64,000 nt of DNA from assembly GCF_017357225.1 (NCBI RefSeq), contig NZ_CP071604.1:3999501-4063500 (forward strand), read 5' to 3'. The DNA comes from Rhizobium binae (GTDB lineage Bacteria > Pseudomonadota > Alphaproteobacteria > Rhizobiales > Rhizobiaceae). Within the stretch, counting starts at the first letter, position 1; every line of letters begins with the position of its first letter. Below the pieces are notes generated by a model that was given only the letters and a program-made list of their open reading frames with translations, did no database searches and was not told the DNA's origin. Positions 34,658 through 44,103 of the stretch are shown in pieces. Both the position numbers and the translations under genes were made by a program.

Positions 34658-35382
34658 GCGGAGAGACTATTCGCGTCAGCGAGATCTTCGGCCCGACCAT
34701 CCAGGGCGAAGGCGCTTTAATCGGACTGCCGACGGTGTTCGTCCGGACAGGCGGCTGTGACTACCGCTGCTCCTGGTGCGACAGCCTTCACGCGGTCGAC
34801 AGCGCCTTCCGGGATCAGTGGATTCCCATGTCCCCCGAGGCGATCTGGCAGGAGGTCACGAAGCTCTCGGCAGGTCGGCCGTTGACGGTTTCCCTATCCG
34901 GAGGCAATCCGGCGATCCAGCCGCTGGGACCACTGATCGAATTCGGCCATTCCCAAGGATACCGGTTCGCGCTGGAAACGCAGGCGAGCGTCGCCCGGGA
35001 CTGGTTTCGCGATCTCGACATCCTGGTCTTAAGCCCCAAGCCGCCGTCGAGCGGAATGCTGACGGATTGGGATCAGGTCGACAGCTGCCTTCGGCTCGCC
35101 GCCGGTGGCCCGGAGATCGGGTTGAAAATCGTCGTCTTCGACGATGACGATTACGCCTTCGCCCAAGAGGCGGGCCGGCGCTATCCCTATATTCCCTTGT
35201 TCCTTCAGCCGGGCAACCATACGCCGCCGCCGCCCGATGATGACGACGCCCGCATCGATATCGACGGGGTGATGGATCGGATGCACTGGCTCGTCGAGAA
35301 GGTGACGACCGACGGATGGTTTGCCCCGCGCGTGCTGCCGCAGCTGCACGTGCTGCTATGGGGAAACAAACGCGGCGTCTGA
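34654..35382 (+). CDS. queE: 7-carboxy-7-deazaguanine synthase (radical SAM)
   Basis: A 242-residue radical SAM enzyme. It starts at ATG 34654, overlapping the queD stop by 4 bp. The 4Fe-4S cluster cysteines are in CDYRCSWCD (CX3CX2C, about residues 32-39), preceded by [22 protein letters not shown] supplies the SAM-binding glycine motif, and SPKPPSSGM is typical of QueE. It makes carboxydeazaguanine from the QueD product. Its 3' end overlaps the convergent cyclase gene by 27 bp. Confidence 0.94.
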
Positions 35383-36618
35383 ACCTGCCTGCGCCCACCG
35401 CTCAGGAAAAGCGAAGACATCGACAGGCTCTCCGAGCCCGCGCAGCGGGAAGGTGCCGAGACTGTCCATGTCTTTCGCGCAGCCCGCCATTTCGACGAAG
35501 GCCCGCGACAGGAGCACCGGACGCTTGACCTCCTTGGTCAGGCTTTCCAGCCGCGAGGCGATATTCACCGCCGGGCCGATGACGGTGAAATCCAGCCGCC
35601 GACGCGAACCGATATTGCCGTACATGACGTCGCCGACATGCACGCCGACACCGTAGCGCAGCGGTTCGCGCCCCGCCCGTGCATGCTGCTCGTTCAGCTC
35701 GGCCATCGACGCCTGCCCTTCGCGGATCGCCTGCAGCAGATCGGCGCAGGCCGTTTCCTTGCTTAAGGGGAAGATTGCCAGCAATCCGTCGCCCATGAAC
35801 TTGAGGATTTCCCCGCCATAGCGTTCGATCGGATCCGACATCGCGTCGAAATAATCGTTGAGCAAATGGATGACATCGTCGCGCGGCCAGAGATCGGAGA
35901 TCGCCGTAAAGTCGCGCAGGTCGCAGATCATGATCGCCGCGCCGACGGTGGCGCCGCTGCCGCGTGTCGTCACGCCCGACAGGATTTGCTCGCTCGCATG
36001 TGGTCCGACATAGGTCTGCAGCAACGTTCGCGCCATGATGTTCTTCAGGCGAATTTCGCTGATTAAGGTCAGGGCCGGAAGGAGATCACGCAGGAAATCG
36101 ACATGTTCGCTCGTAAAGCCGCCCGGCCGGCTGGTGGAAAATGTAGCCACATGCCGTTTGCCGAAGGTGTGTTCGAGCGGCCAGGCGATATACTCGGTCA
36201 GGCCGTCGTCGCGCAGCTCCCGATAGAAGGAATCCAAGTCGGTGTCGACTGCGCCTTCCAGCCGCCTGCGCACCTCCTCCGCACCCTGATGGATCGCGTT
36301 GACCGGGCTGGTCAGGAACTCCGGCGTGTTTTCGACGCCATAGGCGAATGTGTTGATCTTCGCCTCTGTGAGCCCTTCCTTCCAGAGGATGCGGGCACCG
36401 ATCCATTGCGGATGGTTCGTCCGGAAATGCAATGTCGCCCGGGCCACCGGCACCCCGGCCGAAAGCAGCTTCCCGCACATCTCCACCAGAATGTTGTCGA
36501 TGAAACGCTCGTTCCGCGTCTCGTTCACCAGCCAGTCGAGAATCCGTCTCCTGCGGATCGGCCAGACACCCTCGTCCGCTTCAACGGCAGTCCCGGTCTT
36601 GTTCAAAAAAGGCGACAT
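35356..36618 (-). CDS. Class III adenylate cyclase, paralogue of the cyclase at 23490-24707
   Basis: A 420-residue soluble cyclase started at ATG 36618 ([12 protein letters not shown]) with GGAG upstream; the longer frame has no better ribosome site. Residues 1-215 form a non-catalytic domain similar in layout to the other cyclase ([26 protein letters not shown]). The catalytic core keeps D233 (ICDLRDFT), K273, D277 ([10 protein letters not shown]) and [17 protein letters not shown], so activity on ATP is expected. It ends inside the queE 3' end on the opposite strand. Confidence 0.88.
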
Positions 36619-36720
36619 CGAAAACTCCGCTACATCACGCCATCGGCGAGGATCGAATTCAGTTTCCGCTGAATGTGGGCGACAGGGAAGCAAATGATAA
36701 GGGCAGACTGCGAGAAAGCC

Positions 36721-37719
<999 letters not shown>

Positions 37720-37871: not shown

Positions 37872-40076
37872 TCAAAGCGTACAAGAGACGCAGCCCTGGA
37901 CCTCGGTGCCGGACAGCGCCATCTGGCGAAGGCGGATGTAGTAGATCGTCTTGATGCCCTTCTTCCAGGCATAGATCTGCGCCTTGTTGATATCGCGCGT
38001 CGTTGCCGTGTCGCGGAAGAACAGGGTCAGCGACAGACCCTGGTCGACATGCTGGGTCGCCGCCGCATAGGTGTCGATGATCTTCTCCGCGCCGATCTCG
38101 TAGGCGTCCTGGTAATAATCGAGATTGTCGTTGGTCATGAACGGCGCCGGATAATAGACGCGGCCGATCTTGCCTTCCTTGCGGATCTCGACCTTCGAGA
38201 CGATCGGATGGATCGAGGAGGTCGAGTGGTTGATGTAGGAGATCGAGCCAGTCGGCGGCACAGCCTGCAGGTTCTGGTTATACAGGCCGGAAGTCATGAC
38301 AGCCGTCTTCAATACCGCCCAATCCTCCTGTGTCGGAATATGGATTCCTGATTTGTCGAACAGCGCCTGCACCTTCTCGGTCGCCGGCTTCCATTCCGTT
38401 TCGATATATTTGTCGAAATAGTCGCCGGAGGCATATTTCGAATTCTCGAAGCCCTTGAAGCTTTGGCCGCGTTCGACCGCCAGCAGGTTCGAGGCGCGAA
38501 TCGCGTGATAGGTCACCGTATAGAAATAGATATTGGTGAAATCGACGCCTTCCTCCGAGCCGTAGAAGATGCGTGCGCGGGCGAGATAGCCGTGCAGGTT
38601 CATCTGGCCGAGGCCGATCGCATGGCTCTCGTCGTTGCCCTTCTCGATCGAAGGGACCGAGGCAATGTGGCTCATGTCCGAGACGGCCGTCAGCGCCCTG
38701 ATCGAGGTCTCGACCGTCTTGCCGAAATCGGCGGAATCCATGGCCGCCGCAATGTTCAGCGAGCCGAGATTGCAGGAAATATCCTTGCCCAGATGCTTGT
38801 AGGAGAGGTCGTCGTTGTATTCGCTCGCCTCGCTGACCTGCAGGATCTCCGAGCAGAGGTTGCTCATCGAAATGCGGCCGGCGATCGGGTTTGCCCGGTT
38901 CACCGTATCCTCGAACATGAGGTAGGGATAACCGCTCTCGAACTGTATCTCGGCGAGCACCTGGAAGAATTCACGCGCCTTGATCTTCTTCTTCGAGATA
39001 CGGGCGTCCGCCACCATCTCCCGGTACTTTTCCGTCACCGAAATCTCGGTGAAGGGCATGCCGTAAACGCGCTCCACGTCATAGGGCGAGAACAGATACA
39101 TATCCTCGTTGTTCTTGGCGAGCTCGAAGGTGATGTCGGGCACGACGACGCCGAGCGACAGCGTCTTGATGCGGATCTTCTCATCGGCATTTTCGCGCTT
39201 GGTGTCGAGGAAGCGCATAATGTCGGGGTGATGGGCGTTGAGATAGACAGCACCCGCTCCCTGACGGGCACCGAGCTGGTTGGCATAGGAAAAACTGTCT
39301 TCGAGCAGTTTCATGACGGGAATGATGCCCGACGACTGGTTCTCGATCTGCTTGATCGGCGCGCCGGCCTCGCGGATGTTCGTCAGCGACAGCGCCACGC
39401 CGCCGCCGCGCTTCGACAATTGCAGCGCCGAATTGATCGACCGGCCGATCGATTCCATATTGTCCTCGACCCGCAGCAGGAAGCAGGAGACAAGTTCGCC
39501 GCGCTGCTTCTTGCCAGCGTTGAGGAAGGTCGGCGTCGCCGGCTGGAACCGGCCGGAAATGATCTCGTCGACCACGTCGCGGGCAAGGGCCTCATCGCCA
39601 CGCGCCAGCGTCAGCGCCACCATGCAGATGCGGTCCTCGTAGCGCTCGAGATAGCGTTTTCCGTCGAAGGTCTTCAGCGTATAGCTGGTGTAATATTTGA
39701 ACGCACCGAGGAAGGTCGGGAAACGGAACTTTCGGGCATAGGCCTCATCGAACAGTTCGCGTACGAAATTGAAGGAATACTGGTCGAGCACCTCCTGCTG
39801 GTAGTAGCCCTCGGTCACGAGGTAATCGAGCTTTTCCCTGAGATTGTGAAAGAACACGGTGTTCTGGTTCACGTGTTGCAGGAAATACTGCTTTGCCGCC
39901 AAGCGGTCCTTGTCGAGCTGGATCCGTCCCTCATCGTCATAGAGGTTCAGCATGGCGTTCAGCGCATGATAGTCCAGCGTTTCCGCCGCTTTTACAGGGC
40001 GTTCGCCGGCGGGGTGAGCAAAAGTGCTATGCGGTTTTGCGCCCGCATCCCGCGTCAGAGTTGTTGCCGTGTCCAA
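37872..40076 (-). CDS. nrdE: Class Ib ribonucleotide reductase, large subunit
   Basis: About 734 residues, begun at TTG 40076 ([12 protein letters not shown]), which lies in the end of nrdI; the start is uncertain, and ATG 39954 would drop residues conserved in related NrdE proteins. No ATP-cone is present, as in class Ib. Active-site cysteines are in [16 protein letters not shown] and [10 protein letters not shown]. The C-terminal CVSCTL is the pair reduced by NrdH. It reduces ribonucleoside diphosphates to deoxy forms with NrdF. Confidence 0.94.
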
Positions 40077-40486
40077 AATCGTTCCATTCCGTGTTTGACG
40101 TTGGCGACATCTTCTTCCGTGCCCATGAGCTCGAACCTGTAGAGGTAGGGCACCTGGCATTTCTGCGAAATCACGTCGCCGGCGAGCCCGTATGTCTCGC
40201 CGAAATTGCTGTTGCCCGCGGCAATAACGCCCCGGATGTGTCCTCGATTCTCCGCATCGTTCAAGAAACGGATCACCTGCTTGGGAACGGCACCCTTGCC
40301 ACTGTCGCCGCTATAGGTCGGCACGATGAGAACGAAAGGCTCGCGGATACGCAACGCCTCTCCGCCGCTAGAAGGAATGCGCGCCGCGCGCAGCCCGAGC
40401 TTGGTGACGAATCGGTGGGTGTTCTCCGATCGGCTGGAATAGTAGACGATCAGCCCCACCGCCGTTTTCCGGTCAGGAGAGCGCAC
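40055..40486 (-). CDS. nrdI: Flavodoxin-like NrdI, cofactor activator of NrdF
   Basis: A 143-residue flavoprotein. The FMN phosphate loop is in [15 protein letters not shown], followed by [16 protein letters not shown] and [14 protein letters not shown]. NrdI supplies oxidant to assemble the manganese-tyrosyl cofactor of NrdF. It overlaps the nrdH stop by 14 bp if begun at ATG 40486; a GTG at 40459 is an alternative start. Its own 3' end overlaps the proposed nrdE start. Confidence 0.93.
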
Positions 40487-40694
40487 TGATCATATCGGGA
40501 CGGAAACCCGCCCAATGCCGCTCGCCGGCGATGACGACCGGCGCCTGCATGTAGCCGAGGCTGCGGACGCGATCGAGCGCTTCGGCGTCCTGCGAGATAT
40601 CGACGATATCGTAATCGACGCCCAGGCGGTCGAGGGCGCGATAGGTGGCGGTGCACTGGACGCAGGCAGGTTTGCTGTAGACGGTAACGCTCAT
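40473..40694 (-). CDS. nrdH: Glutaredoxin-like NrdH redoxin
   Basis: A 73-residue electron donor for NrdEF. It is begun at ATG 40694 with GAGGA five bases upstream; an adjacent ATG at 40697 is too close to that site. The redox motif is CVQC (residues 10-13) and the C-terminal WAGFRPDMI is diagnostic of NrdH. It is the first gene of the operon. About 270 nt of leader separate it from the end of the cobalamin riboswitch. Confidence 0.95.
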
Positions 40695-40867
40695 CATGTT
40701 CCTCGTGATGTCAAAGAATTCAGGACGCAATACTCGGATCGGACGCCTTGCGACGTCCGGGGCAACGCTTGATGGTGATCTGGCAAAGTCGGCGGCTTAA
40801 ACGCCCGATACGATCTCTTTCCGGATTTGTGCGGGCGGCGGCCTTGATGTTCTGGACATGACTTCAA

Positions 40868-40896
40868 CCCCGAAGTGCGCATGCGGACGTTCGGGG
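40868..40896 (-). promoter_or_regulatory. Hairpin in the nrdH leader
   Basis: CCCCGAA (40868-40874) pairs with TTCGGGG (40890-40896). It is in the 270-nt leader between the B12 riboswitch and nrdH and could take part in the expression platform. No U-run follows on the minus strand, so it is not a simple terminator. Confidence 0.35.
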
Positions 40897-40964
40897 CAGC
40901 GCAACAGGCGCGGATCATTCCGCTTCATGCACGCGACCTTCCGGACACCCCGCCCGTGGACGTT

Positions 40965-41170
40965 TCGTTCAAGGCAGGTCTCCTGGCTAGCGGGTCGAAG
41001 CACCCTGCCCCGGCCTTCCCGAGGCCTCATGCCTCAGTGACCTGAAATCGGACAGTTGCTCGCCGCTTACAGTTGCGGGGGCAGCTCCGGCCTTGTTGCG
41101 CCATCATGGCGAAACGCACCGTATTCCCATCTTCGCCCCCAGATCCTGACGAATCGAAGGCACCTCGAAC
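40965..41170 (-). ncRNA. Cobalamin (B12) riboswitch upstream of nrdHIEF
   Basis: Read on the minus strand, the element begins near GAGGTGCC (41166-41159) and shows GGGAATACGGTG, then CCGGAGCTGCCCCCGCAACT with GTAAGCGG, then GTCACTG, and ends with the B12 box AGCCAGGAGACCTGCC (40972-40987 region). These are the conserved blocks of the adenosylcobalamin riboswitch in the right order and spacing. It is oriented toward nrdH. Adenosylcobalamin should repress this B12-independent reductase when a B12-dependent class II enzyme can work. Confidence 0.93.
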
Positions 41171-41184
41171 ACTAGATATAGTAC
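41169..41184. promoter_or_regulatory. NrdR box overlapping the nrdH promoter -10
   Basis: ACACTAGATATAGTAC on the plus strand matches the NrdR consensus (ACACTATATATAGTGT type) with near-perfect dyad symmetry. It overlaps the proposed -10 element, so NrdR with ATP/dATP would block initiation. A second box at the usual helical spacing is not evident. Confidence 0.75.
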
Positions 41185-41205
41185 GCGAATCGAGAAAAGC
41201 GTCAA
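41178..41205 (-). promoter_or_regulatory. sigma70-like promoter of nrdHIEF
   Basis: On the minus strand TTGACG (41205-41200) and TACTAT (41183-41178) are separated by 16 bp. The expected start site near 41171 coincides with the 5' end of the cobalamin riboswitch, which supports the call. Confidence 0.6.
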
Positions 41206-41386: not shown

Positions 41387-43609
41387 CTATCCCCTTATTC
41401 GAAGCAGCCGGAGCGCGTTGAACGTCACCAGCACGGTGGCGCCGGTATCGGCGAGGATCGCCGGCCAGAGCCCGGTCATCCCGATGATCGTCGTCACCAG
41501 GAAGACAGCCTTCAGCCCGAGCGCAATGGTGATATTCTGAAAAATATTGCGCATCGTCCGCTGCGAAAGCGCGATCATTCGCGCCACGTCGCCGACGCGT
41601 CCGTGTAGCACGGCCGCATCGGCCGTCTCCAGCGCCACGTCGGTGCCGCCGCCCATGGCAATGCCGATATCGGCAGCCGCCAGCGCGGGCGCGTCGTTGA
41701 TGCCGTCGCCGACCTTGGCGACGATGAAGCCCCGGCGTTTGAATTCGCCGACGGCCTTCTGTTTGTCTTGCGGCATCATCTCGCCGCGCCAGTCGATGCC
41801 GAGCATGCCGGCGACGGCTGCCGCCGCCCGCTTGTTGTCACCCGTGAGCATCATCGCCTCTATCCCCGCTGCTTTCAGGGCCGACAGCCCGGCTTCAGCA
41901 TCCTCACGCGGCTCGTCGCGCATGGCGATCAGGCCGGCTGCCGCGCCATTGACGAGAAGCACCGACACGCTCTTGCCCTCGTCGTTCAGCGCACTGATGC
42001 AGGCGTCCTTTTCCCCATCAAGCGCCCCGCGCTCGCGAGCGGCGGACGGCGACAGCAGATCCAGAGTCTCGCCCCCGACTTTGCCCGTGACGCCCTTGCC
42101 CGGCAGCGCCTCCAGCTCGAAGGCCGGCGGCACGGGAACGCCGTCCGCCTTGGCGCGGTTGAGGATCGCAAGCGCCAAAGGATGGCTGGAGCCCTGCTCC
42201 AGCACCGCCGCGCGCGACAGGAGCTGCGCTTCGTTCAAACTGAAGGAAACGATATCGGTCACCTGAGGCTTGCCTTCCGTCAGCGTGCCCGTCTTGTCCA
42301 AGGCGACCATCGTCACCTTCCCAAGGCCTTCCAGCACCGCACCGCCCTTCATCAGCAGTCCGCGCCGCGCGCCTGCCGAAAGCGAGGCTGCGATTGCTGC
42401 CGGCGTCGAGATGACAAGCGCGCAGGGGCAGCCGATCAGCAGGATGGCAAGGCCCTTGTAGATCCATTCAGCCCACACGCCGGCGAGGAACAGCGGTGGA
42501 ACGACTGCAACCAACGCCGCGACCACCACGACGCCTGGCGTGTAATAGCGCGAGAACCGGTCGATGAAGCGTTCCGTCGGCGCCTTCGATTCCTGCGCCT
42601 CTTCCACCAGCTTGACCACCCGGGCGATGGTGTTGTCGGCCGCGGCCGCTGTGACGCGAACCCTAAGCACCGCATCGCCATTTACTGTCCCCGCAAAAAC
42701 CGCGGCATCGACGCCCTTTCGAACCGGCGTGCTCTCGCCCGTCACCGGCGCCTCGTCGATCGCGCTCTCGCCCGATACGATGACGCCGTCCGCAGAAATA
42801 CGGTCGCCGGGCCGAACCATGATGATCGCGCCAACGGCAAGGCTTTCCGCCGGCACCTCCCGCGTCTGGCCATTGTCTTCCAGCAAAGCATTCTTCGGCA
42901 CCAGGGCCGTCAGCGATCGAATGCTTTCGCGGGCCTTGCCGGCAGCCACGCCTTCCAGCAGTTCGCCGACGAGAAACAGGAAGACGACGGTCGCCGCCTC
43001 CTCGCCCGCATTGATGATGACGGCGCCGACCGCGGCGATCGTCATCAGCATCTCGATCGAAAATGGCGCGCCTGCAAACGCCGCCATTATGGCGCGCCGC
43101 GCGATCGGTACCAGACCGACCAGCATGGCGACGATGAAGGCATAGGCTCCGACCGCAGGCGCGAGATGGCCGACAGCGTAGGCGGCAAGCAGCGCTGCAC
43201 CCGAGAGGATGGTCAGCCGGCCCTTCCTGCTCTGCCACCAGGGGCCTGTCATCGGCCCATGGTCATGCCCGTGCAGGCCCTCGATTTCTTTTTCGGCATG
43301 GCGGTGATTGTGAACATGACCTTCATGCTCGTGCCCGGCGTGATCGTGATGATCGTACGATCCGTGATCTCCCCTCGGCGCAGCGCTTCCGGCAAAAGAC
43401 GAGACCGAATAGCCGAGCCCCGTCACCTTCTTCTCGATCGCCTTGAGGTCGCTGCTGCCGTCGTGCCGAACGATCATCGAACCCGCTACCACCGAGACGG
43501 AAACATCGACGACTCCAGCCACGCGCCTGACCGCCGCGTCGATCTTGCTCGCGCAGGCGGCACAATCCATGCCGCCGACCCGGTATCGTGTCTCGTTCGC
43601 CTCAGCCAT
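41387..43609 (-). CDS. P1B-2 type Zn/Cd/Pb-exporting ATPase
   Basis: About 740 residues, begun at ATG 43609 (MAEANETRYRVGG) behind AAGGAA. The N-terminal HMA domain has C16/C19 in GGMDCAAC, followed by a His-rich stretch around residues 80-120 (HHDHAGHEHEGHVHNHRH). The membrane metal site is CPC in IGCPCALV, the phosphorylated Asp is in DKTGTLTEGK, and the hinge is GDGINDAPALAAADIG. The last helices hold the Lys of LGLKAVF and the Asp of LADTGAT that mark Zn/Cd/Pb rather than Cu pumps. It is divergent from a MerR regulator that should activate it. Confidence 0.93.
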   Translation of the reverse strand: MAEANETRYRVGGMDCAACASKIDAAVRRVAGVVDVSVSVVAGSMIVRHDGSSDLKAIEKKVTGLGYSVSSFAGSAAPRGDHGSYDHHDHAGHEHEGHVHNHRHAEKEIEGLHGHDHGPMTGPWWQSRKGRLTILSGAALLAAYAVGHLAPAVGAYAFIVAMLVGLVPIARRAIMAAFAGAPFSIEMLMTIAAVGAVIINAGEEAATVVFLFLVGELLEGVAAGKARESIRSLTALVPKNALLEDNGQTREVPAESLAVGAIIMVRPGDRISADGVIVSGESAIDEAPVTGESTPVRKGVDAAVFAGTVNGDAVLRVRVTAAAADNTIARVVKLVEEAQESKAPTERFIDRFSRYYTPGVVVVAALVAVVPPLFLAGVWAEWIYKGLAILLIGCPCALVISTPAAIAASLSAGARRGLLMKGGAVLEGLGKVTMVALDKTGTLTEGKPQVTDIVSFSLNEAQLLSRAAVLEQGSSHPLALAILNRAKADGVPVPPAFELEALPGKGVTGKVGGETLDLLSPSAARERGALDGEKDACISALNDEGKSVSVLLVNGAAAGLIAMRDEPREDAEAGLSALKAAGIEAMMLTGDNKRAAAAVAGMLGIDWRGEMMPQDKQKAVGEFKRRGFIVAKVGDGINDAPALAAADIGIAMGGGTDVALETADAAVLHGRVGDVARMIALSQRTMRNIFQNITIALGLKAVFLVTTIIGMTGLWPAILADTGATVLVTFNALRLLRIRG

Positions 43610-43639
43610 GATCCGATTCCTTGTCAAATAGAAGCACCT

Positions 43640-43670
43640 CTCCTACATCCTCTAGCGACTAGAGGTGCAA
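43640..43670 (-). promoter_or_regulatory. MerR-type promoter with 19-bp spacer and dyad
   Basis: On the minus strand TTGCAC (43670-43665) and TAGGAG (43645-43640) are 19 bp apart, the overlong spacer of MerR-activated promoters. The spacer contains the dyad CCTCTAG (43649-43655), CGA, CTAGAGG (43659-43665). It drives the metal ATPase and lies about 11 bp before the regulator gene on the other strand, so it also allows autorepression. Confidence 0.82.
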
Positions 43671-43680
43671 GAGGAATGTC

Positions 43681-44103
43681 ATGAAAAAGATCACGATTGG
43701 CGTAGCCGCTCGCCGGAGCGGGGTCAAAGTGCCGACGGTGCGTTACTACGAGAGCATCGGCCTGCTCGCGGCGCCGAGCCGCAGCGAAGGCAACCAGCGC
43801 TCCTTCGAACCTGCCGATATCAACCGCCTCACCTTCATCCGCCATGCCCGCGAACTCGGTTTCGACATCGAGGCGATCCGCACGCTGCTCACCCTGCAGG
43901 ATGATCCTCACCAATCTTGCGCTTCGGCCGATGCCATCGCCAAGGCCCGTCTCGTCGAGGTCGAGCAGCGCATCCGCCGCCTGAAGGCGCTGAAGGCCGA
44001 ACTCGAAACCATGGTGGAAGGTTGCGGCCATGGCCGCGTCGACCAATGCCGTGTCATCGAGGTTCTCGCCGACCACGGCCAGTGCACGCATTCCCACCAC
44101 TGA
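43681..44103 (+). CDS. MerR-family metal-responsive activator (ZntR/CadR type)
   Basis: A 140-residue regulator. The winged helix covers residues 1-70 (GVAARRSGVKVPTVRYYESIGLL), and a dimerisation helix follows at about 80-112. Metal-binding cysteines are C80, C115, C123 and C135, with His117 and the terminal HSHH; the C80 plus CGH-x5-C pattern indicates divalent Zn/Cd/Pb sensing rather than Cu(I). It would twist the 19-bp-spacer promoter of the divergent P-type ATPase when metal binds. Confidence 0.92.
   Translation: MKKITIGVAARRSGVKVPTVRYYESIGLLAAPSRSEGNQRSFEPADINRLTFIRHARELGFDIEAIRTLLTLQDDPHQSCASADAIAKARLVEVEQRIRRLKALKAELETMVEGCGHGRVDQCRVIEVLADHGQCTHSHH

Follow-up and report, generated by a model that had tools for sequence, protein, structure and literature searches.

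In Streptomyces, the nrdABS operon is said to be controlled by both a B12 riboswitch and NrdR, as reportedly described by Borovok et al. in 2006. Repression of a B12-independent reductase by a B12 element, where the B12-dependent reductase NrdJ is also present, was proposed two decades ago, as told in the passage of PMC545781 that treats it and that cites earlier work. NrdR itself has been implicated in the control of all three classes of ribonucleotide reductase (RNR), according to the portion of PMC4009431 that concerns it.

We think it likely that nrdHIEF of Rhizobium is under two-layer control, by NrdR and by a B12 riboswitch with a short upstream open reading frame (uORF). In the first layer, on DNA, NrdR would act on a box over the -10 and the start site and would repress at high (d)ATP; the same type of box would control nrdJ. 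In the second layer, on RNA, the 5' end of the transcript would form an adenosylcobalamin aptamer. The B12-free reductase would then be made only when B12 is too short for NrdJ. We infer the ligand, the direction of the response, NrdR binding, and translation of the uORF from sequence.

The nrdHIEF promoter and its NrdR-type box

The window, which is the whole 64-kb stretch of DNA that we analyzed, lies within a genome of 7.06 Mb in 8 contigs. On its minus strand, the genes are in the order nrdH-nrdI-nrdE-nrdF, which identifies a class Ib reductase, and each of the four scores above the curated cut-off of the NCBIfam model that fits it best (Table 1). The closest named relatives of NrdE, among the best 80 of 589, are from Rhizobium lentis, R. 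johnstonii 3841, and other species of the R. etli/leguminosarum group (93-96% identical); records very near the window may be absent from this set of named loci. A protein with an adenylate/guanylate cyclase domain is encoded 3' of nrdF in the same orientation (35356-36693, minus strand), and the stretch upstream of nrdH (41387-44103) encodes a heavy-metal P-type ATPase resembling ZntA and, divergently, a regulator of the MerR family.

Table 1. Features of the nrdHIEF locus (window coordinates)
Feature	Position	Strand	Basis or remark
-35 hexamer TTGACG	41200..41205	-	sequence
-10 hexamer TACTAT	41178..41183	-	within the NrdR box; sequence and conservation in 68 promoters
NrdR-type box GTACTATATCTAGTGT	41169..41184	-	over the -10 and the presumed start site; 2 mismatches to consensus
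Cobalamin riboswitch aptamer, complete	40956..41182	-	RF00174, E 2.5e-28
L5 loop CCCCGC	41075..41080	-	presumed kissing partner of L13; nearly invariant in the alignment
P13/L13 with GCGGGG (40953-40948)	40941..40960	-	past the Rfam model; almost no variation among 56 aligned leaders
Anti-Shine-Dalgarno arm CCCCGAA	40890..40896	-	MFE hairpin in the window, with L13 blocked or not
uORF Shine-Dalgarno GGGG (CTTCGGGGTTGAAGTC-ATG)	40868..40871	-	sequence
uORF, 20 codons, MSRTSRPPPAQIRKEIVSGV	40797..40859	-	position-conserved ATG and stop
Second conserved hairpin HP2	40741..40758	-	between uORF and nrdH; RNAalifold on group alignments
GAGGA, Shine-Dalgarno of nrdH	40700..40704	-	sequence
nrdH	40473..40697	-	TIGR02194, above cut-off
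nrdI	40055..40459	-	TIGR00333, above cut-off
nrdE	37872..40160	-	open frame; residues 63-762 matched; TIGR04170, 1285 bits
nrdF	36721..37695	-	TIGR04171, 480 bits

An earlier note on this DNA had proposed that a complete cobalamin riboswitch is oriented toward nrdH. The covariance search agrees: when we scanned the 64-kb window with Rfam at gathering scores, RF00174 was the sole match, with 115.8 bits (the cut-off is 31.5), and the alignment covers positions 1-189 of the model, is complete with the B12 box, and is directed at nrdH. Across the genome, two more riboswitches exceed the Rfam cut-off, one before a gene that we take from its translation to be bluB and one before a gene cluster on the side of a presumed cobW, and another match is weak and below the cut-off (27.9 bits). 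None of these other riboswitches has an NrdR-type box. The genome does encode NrdR (TIGR00244, 149.6 bits).

The same note had read a TTGACG/TACTAT promoter with 16-bp spacing that is overlapped by an NrdR box. Both hexamers are present with that spacing (41205-41178, minus strand). The consensus for NrdR is the 16-bp box ACACWATATNTWGTGT, and the final bases of the 16-mer at nrdH are also part of riboswitch helix P1. If two mismatches are allowed, the NrdR pattern has just two matches in the 7.06-Mb genome, which are at the promoters of nrdH and nrdJ (C1:1871915-1871930, immediately before nrdJ); a control pattern, the consensus read backwards, has one match at the same tolerance. From the promoter sequence, we expect transcription to start at about 41173-41171, which is the foot of P1; the first positions of the Rfam model are an unpaired flank. 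The start site had been predicted to fall exactly where the riboswitch begins, and this holds if "exactly" is taken to mean within a few bases.

The layout of promoter, box, and riboswitch is above chance, since 68 distinct nrdH promoters keep the -35, the spacing of 16 bp, the box, and the point where the riboswitch starts (TTGACG or a near variant, the 16-bp spacer, and TACTATATNTAGTGTTCGAGGT). The exceptions are a 17-bp spacer at L215 and a poor -35 at L044 from Devosia. Across these promoters, most positions of the box carry about 2 bits of information; the least conserved are position 1 (0.5 bits), position 10, which is the N of the consensus (0.66 bits), and position 12, a W (1.04 bits for the second W). 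This profile is as expected for an NrdR box. At position 2, 67 of the 68 promoters have T where the consensus has C, and a T there suits the -10.

This last detail could also mean that the "NrdR box" is only core promoter and riboswitch start, with TACTATATNTAGTGT kept for the -10, the start site, and P1, and with no NrdR binding: a -10 would want T and not C at position 2. We consider this quite improbable. It would leave unexplained why the N and the second W vary while neighboring positions do not, why the pattern has so few matches genome-wide, and why the same box is found at nrdJ.

The number of boxes also bears on this question. Known NrdR sites are tandem and 32 bp apart, with an extended arrangement at nrdH of M. 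tuberculosis, at least as set out in the relevant text of PMC4428469. In our sample of nrdJ loci, 30 of 30 have a box, with 0-3 mismatches to ATACTATATTTAGTGT. When a model built from these 30 boxes was scored on the same nrdJ promoters, the mean score peaked at +31 bp (z 4.85), which is the tandem register; a few individual promoters fit +32 rather than +31. At riboswitch-bearing nrdH promoters, there is no +31 signal, for which reason we rejected a downstream tandem box inside the aptamer, and the score at -31 (z 2.07) is no better than at several other offsets. In other words, these promoters show one good box and no clear partner 31-32 bp away, which amends the earlier reading. A missing partner is what a promoter-only element would predict. 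However, nrdH promoters without the riboswitch do have box pairs exactly 31 bp apart in genus g81, in 4 of 4 loci (L214, L216, L217, and L219), with 2-5 mismatches in each box, and the upstream box ends in TTGACG in three of the four. At the riboswitch-bearing promoters, the A at position 6 of the matching upstream box (box A) is kept in 62 of 68, which also argues against a promoter-only element. We prefer to think that NrdR binds the box at nrdH, and the sequence over the -35 is suggestive, though only that, of a degraded remnant of an upstream NrdR box.

We also noticed a palindrome, CCACAAGATGTTGTGG, at 244 bp upstream of the nrdJ box (L123; G000, C1:1872174). A site resembling the NrdR box, with 1-4 mismatches, lies 244-269 bp upstream of the nrdJ box in all 24 loci whose start codon was found, of 30 (L157-L186). 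It is possibly a third NrdR box or a site for another regulator.

Retention of the riboswitch and possession of NrdJ

Among the named NrdE loci (the best 80 of 589), the B12-box motif together with the promoter places a riboswitch ahead of nrdH in 42 (L009-L044, L047, L048, L050, L062, L073, and L087). The other 38 comprise L045 and L046 from Devosia and L054 and L060 from Pseudochrobactrum, which were checked with Rfam, and 34 loci labeled as non-alphaproteobacteria, for which the check was for the B12-box motif over the locus. Conservation of the promoter, the box, and the riboswitch extends across Rhizobiales. A contig labeled as an Arenimonas MAG (L035) has a typical Rhizobiales nrdHIEF leader and is likely misbinned.

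If the riboswitch shuts off a B12-independent reductase, then the genome should encode a class II, B12-dependent NrdJ, as the earlier note predicted, and it does: nrdJ matches TIGR02504 with 574.5 bits, above the cut-off, and NF005736 with 2367 bits. We then considered 297 genomes of the family, 49 of which have NrdE above the cut-off. NrdJ was called present if its model had a match at E = 0 and absent if the model had no match or matched only NrdE, weakly (E about 1e-7 to 1e-11). NrdJ is present in 34 of the 49 genomes and absent from 15. The regions upstream of 50 other NrdE copies were scanned with Rfam; the window is the 51st. A riboswitch precedes nrdH in 32 of the 34 genomes with both NrdE and NrdJ (83.5-135.6 bits; the exceptions are G161 and G005), and an intact riboswitch precedes nrdH in none of the 15 without NrdJ. 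Fisher's exact test gives p = 8.6e-11, or 2.5e-9 if G273 is counted as a positive, and these values overstate the significance because relatedness is ignored. One genome, G178, has two nrdHIEF copies (L194 and L213), both with riboswitches above 114 bits.

Contrasts within g91 and g75 favor this link, and g81 speaks against it. In g91, riboswitch and NrdJ occur together in G282, and three other genomes have neither. In g81, G161 has NrdJ and no riboswitch and three others have neither. In g75, two genomes have both (G157 and G219), and G273 lacks NrdJ. G273 has two copies of nrdHIEF (L190 and L191), both of which keep TTGACG-16-TACTAT and the NrdR box. No B12 box is found in the aptamer of either copy, even with 4 mismatches, and each aptamer has decayed differently; Rfam misses L190 and gives L191 34.6 bits, just above the cut-off of 31.5. 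This amounts to a natural experiment, in which the aptamer is lost along with NrdJ and the NrdR box can stay. That both copies keep the box despite the decay is a further argument against a box that serves only promoter and P1.

Thus, retention of the predicted riboswitch is tied to possession of NrdJ. The comparison strongly supports cofactor-dependent isozyme switching as the reading of these sequences, and the first interpretation of this DNA, with NrdR and B12 controlling nrdHIEF, is supported. The NrdR signal and the B12 signal would both have to permit expression. We read the direction of the switch from sequence; on another view, it turns nrdHIEF on, or senses B12 for some other purpose, so that nrdHIEF is made with B12 and not instead of it. 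We consider this very unlikely: retention alongside NrdJ fits an OFF switch, as does the predicted platform that hides a Shine-Dalgarno sequence (described below), and both cobalamin riboswitches for which PMC6538847 gives reporter tests in Caulobacter, also an alphaproteobacterium, are OFF switches.

A uORF as the probable output of the riboswitch

The aptamer faces nrdHIEF, as the earlier note said. We amend that note in one respect: the output that is visible in the sequence is a conserved uORF and not the ribosome site of nrdH itself. Past the Rfam model, three elements are common to the leaders: P13/L13 (GGGCGGGGTG), the hairpin CCCCGAA...CTTCGGGG, and GGGGTGAAGTC-ATG, whose ATG opens the uORF. 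By rule, a uORF is found in 69 of 75 riboswitch leaders, with some species counted twice and a start at L187 that is doubtful and probably wrong. The rule finds none in L044, L062, L073, L087, or L225; the uORF of L198 was found by an earlier rule. A longer candidate, a 42-codon uORF starting at ATGAAGCGG, was rejected because its ATG is not conserved in the relatives' leaders that we compared.

Two lengths predominate among the 58 distinct uORF sequences: 11 codons in 16 of them and 20 codons in 23. It is possible that the riboswitch is an ordinary translational one and the uORF a by-product, its Shine-Dalgarno and ATG being left over from an ancestral start of nrdH, and that B12 controls nrdH by other means, such as direct Rho loading or RNA decay. 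In the Roseibium-type leaders (L073, L087, and L225), the same motif, TTCGGGGTG, is indeed the Shine-Dalgarno of nrdH itself. Also, the uORF peptide is poorly conserved between genera, and a test of entropy by codon position is weak (the R. etli group gives a marginal p = 0.048, and four other groupings give no significant result). We still think that a relic is unlikely. The frequency of stop codons would give about 2% each for 11 and 20 codons, or about 4% together, and these lengths account for 39 of 58, even though the 11-codon set is highly divergent (mean entropy of about 1.4 of 2 bits per site); this comparison ignores relatedness. The identity of the stop varies (TAA, TAG, or TGA) at a constant position, and the uORF of one member of the R. 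etli group (L028) differs by one whole codon. Finally, of the 16 distinct 11-codon peptides, 13 have RE or CE as their last two residues, and their codons vary synonymously. We claim that the frame and the length of this putative uORF are conserved; we do not claim that the peptide is.

Pro-Pro occurs in 21 of 62 distinct uORF peptides, as compared to 9.9 for shuffled ones; this pattern was noticed before it was tested and is therefore no more than a lead, and the count takes in the L187 peptide, whose start is probably wrong. Among cluster representatives, it occurs in 10 of 31 (3.4 expected). Pro-Pro in the uORF could stall ribosomes.

How might B12 reach the uORF? In our model, L13 (GCGGGG) would dock with L5 (CCCCGC) when B12 is bound, so that the CCCCGAA arm could mask the uORF's Shine-Dalgarno; without B12, L13 could pair with the surroundings of the arm, and the uORF would be translated. 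The L5-L13 kissing loop is presumed, by analogy to known cobalamin riboswitches (ppe2, as presented in the pertinent part of PMC11260477). Because both loops hardly vary, covariation is uninformative about it; the alignment of 56 leaders leaves out L042, which has an insertion, and L187, which has no ATG after the Shine-Dalgarno. One of the rules applied to the leaders excluded L198 and twelve more. In 54 of 55 leaders, some stretch upstream of the Shine-Dalgarno can pair with it, with a duplex energy lower than -6 kcal/mol, a count made without a shuffled control. The CCCCGAA/TTCGGGG hairpin after the aptamer has no U-run, and we rejected it as an intrinsic terminator on that sequence.

We folded 55 leaders from P13 to the ATG of the uORF with L13 either free or blocked, as it would be by a kissing loop. 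(This set leaves out L042, L187, L037, and L212, as well as L073, L087, L221, and L225, which have no match to L13.) On average, the predicted openness of the Shine-Dalgarno falls from 0.52 with L13 free to 0.24 with L13 blocked, a change of 0.28, as compared to 0.05 if the middles are shuffled. The change exceeds 0.1 in 40 of the 55 leaders versus 29% of shuffles, and just one leader changes by more than 0.1 in the opposite direction. The signal is in the L13-free state only. In that state, openness is 0.52 versus 0.32 for shuffles and pairing of L13 to the arm is 0.71 versus 0.60 (p = 0.05). With L13 blocked, neither pairing of the Shine-Dalgarno to the arm (0.66 versus 0.62 for shuffles, p = 0.63) nor openness (0.24 versus 0.27, p = 0.51) differs from shuffles. 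The leader in the window has a weak predicted switch (0.27 with L13 free and 0.19 with it blocked). We started folding at P13 because the 3' strand of P1 should be held in P1, and this choice gives the stronger result: with that strand in the fold, the change exceeds 0.1 in 17 of 56 leaders, and in none does it do so in the opposite direction. In these predictions, the hairpin may hide the Shine-Dalgarno of the uORF, although the hiding itself is no stronger than in shuffles.

The link from the uORF to nrdH is the least certain part of the model. The stop of the uORF is 102 nt from nrdH in the window, and the distance in relatives is mostly about 100-130 nt (extremes 59-224); the stop and the start of nrdH do not overlap in the window. 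We rejected termination-reinitiation as the main route because of this gap and because nrdH has its own Shine-Dalgarno. A structural relay, in which an occupied uORF opens the Shine-Dalgarno of nrdH, was also rejected: of 58 leaders, 13 go up and 13 go down. The spacer is C-rich (32.1% C and 24.8% G) and the part before it is G-rich; as a sign of a Rho site, we found no excess of C over G in the uORF-nrdH spacer beyond its composition. Rho-dependent polarity is favored because the alternatives that we tested did worse. Both parts of such a route have precedents, in uPPE2 (PMC11260477) and Mbox-rv1805A (PMC12810186), as far as the portions of these papers that describe them go. If the uORF were not translated, about 100 nt of leader would be bare and nrdHIEF would be cut off, probably by Rho and polarity. 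By this route, B12 would shut the uORF and thereby the operon. The sequence of the 3' arm of HP2 seems to have a second copy about 12 nt further downstream (GGACGTC...GCGTCC...GCGTCC), which hints at alternative pairings.

A more specific version of this model, which we offer tentatively and regard as possible rather than probable, is that translation of a dedicated leader peptide of fixed length (mostly 11 or 20 codons, often with Pro-Pro) is the actual gate. B12 would hide the start of the uORF, and the passage or stalling of ribosomes at its end would decide, via Rho or the second hairpin, whether polymerase reaches nrdH. Such a relay would have taken the place of direct control over nrdH, as in Roseibium and Devosia, and would act in addition to an NrdR box that has bases in common with P1.

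Comparison with known systems

The supply of cobalt and B12 is important to root-nodule bacteria. In this large group of symbionts and their relatives, one operon appears to read both a dNTP signal and the state of a cofactor. The Streptomyces nrdABS case reportedly has the same combination of a B12 riboswitch and NrdR on an aerobic class I reductase beside a class II enzyme, and it differs in being class Ia and actinobacterial. It is not known to have such a uORF.

Among the open-access papers listed by our searches, we recognized none that describes a cobalamin riboswitch ahead of Rhizobiales nrdHIEF or a uORF in that place, and an earlier mention is quite possible. As far as this search goes, what is new is the class Ib case across Rhizobiales, its loss or decay along with NrdJ, the overlap of box, promoter, and aptamer, and the uORF platform. 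The B12 elements at NrdDG in delta-proteobacteria, as they appear in the relevant section of PMC545781, are likewise riboswitches before a B12-independent reductase in genomes with NrdJ. Rhizobium differs from what that section describes in having class Ib nrdHIEF, an NrdR box that overlaps the promoter, and a uORF, and that section does not extend to Rhizobiales.

For the uORF, the nearest parallels are in M. tuberculosis. At ppe2, as we propose for nrdHIEF, a B12 aptamer with a platform that hides a Shine-Dalgarno faces a uORF, uPPE2, that relays to the operon; in the account given in the matching part of PMC11260477, the end of uPPE2 overlaps the start of the gene (AUGA) and the main mechanism is termination-reinitiation, whereas the uORF in Rhizobium is mostly about 100-130 nt from an nrdH that has its own Shine-Dalgarno. 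Mbox-rv1805A, in the corresponding part of PMC12810186, is another riboswitch on a conserved small uORF, with Rho-dependent termination that affects the operon, but its aptamer senses Mg2+, its uORF is unrelated, and the lineage is a different one. If the proposed uORF relay is correct, then uORF-mediated output of riboswitches would be a recurrent design that extends outside the mycobacteria.
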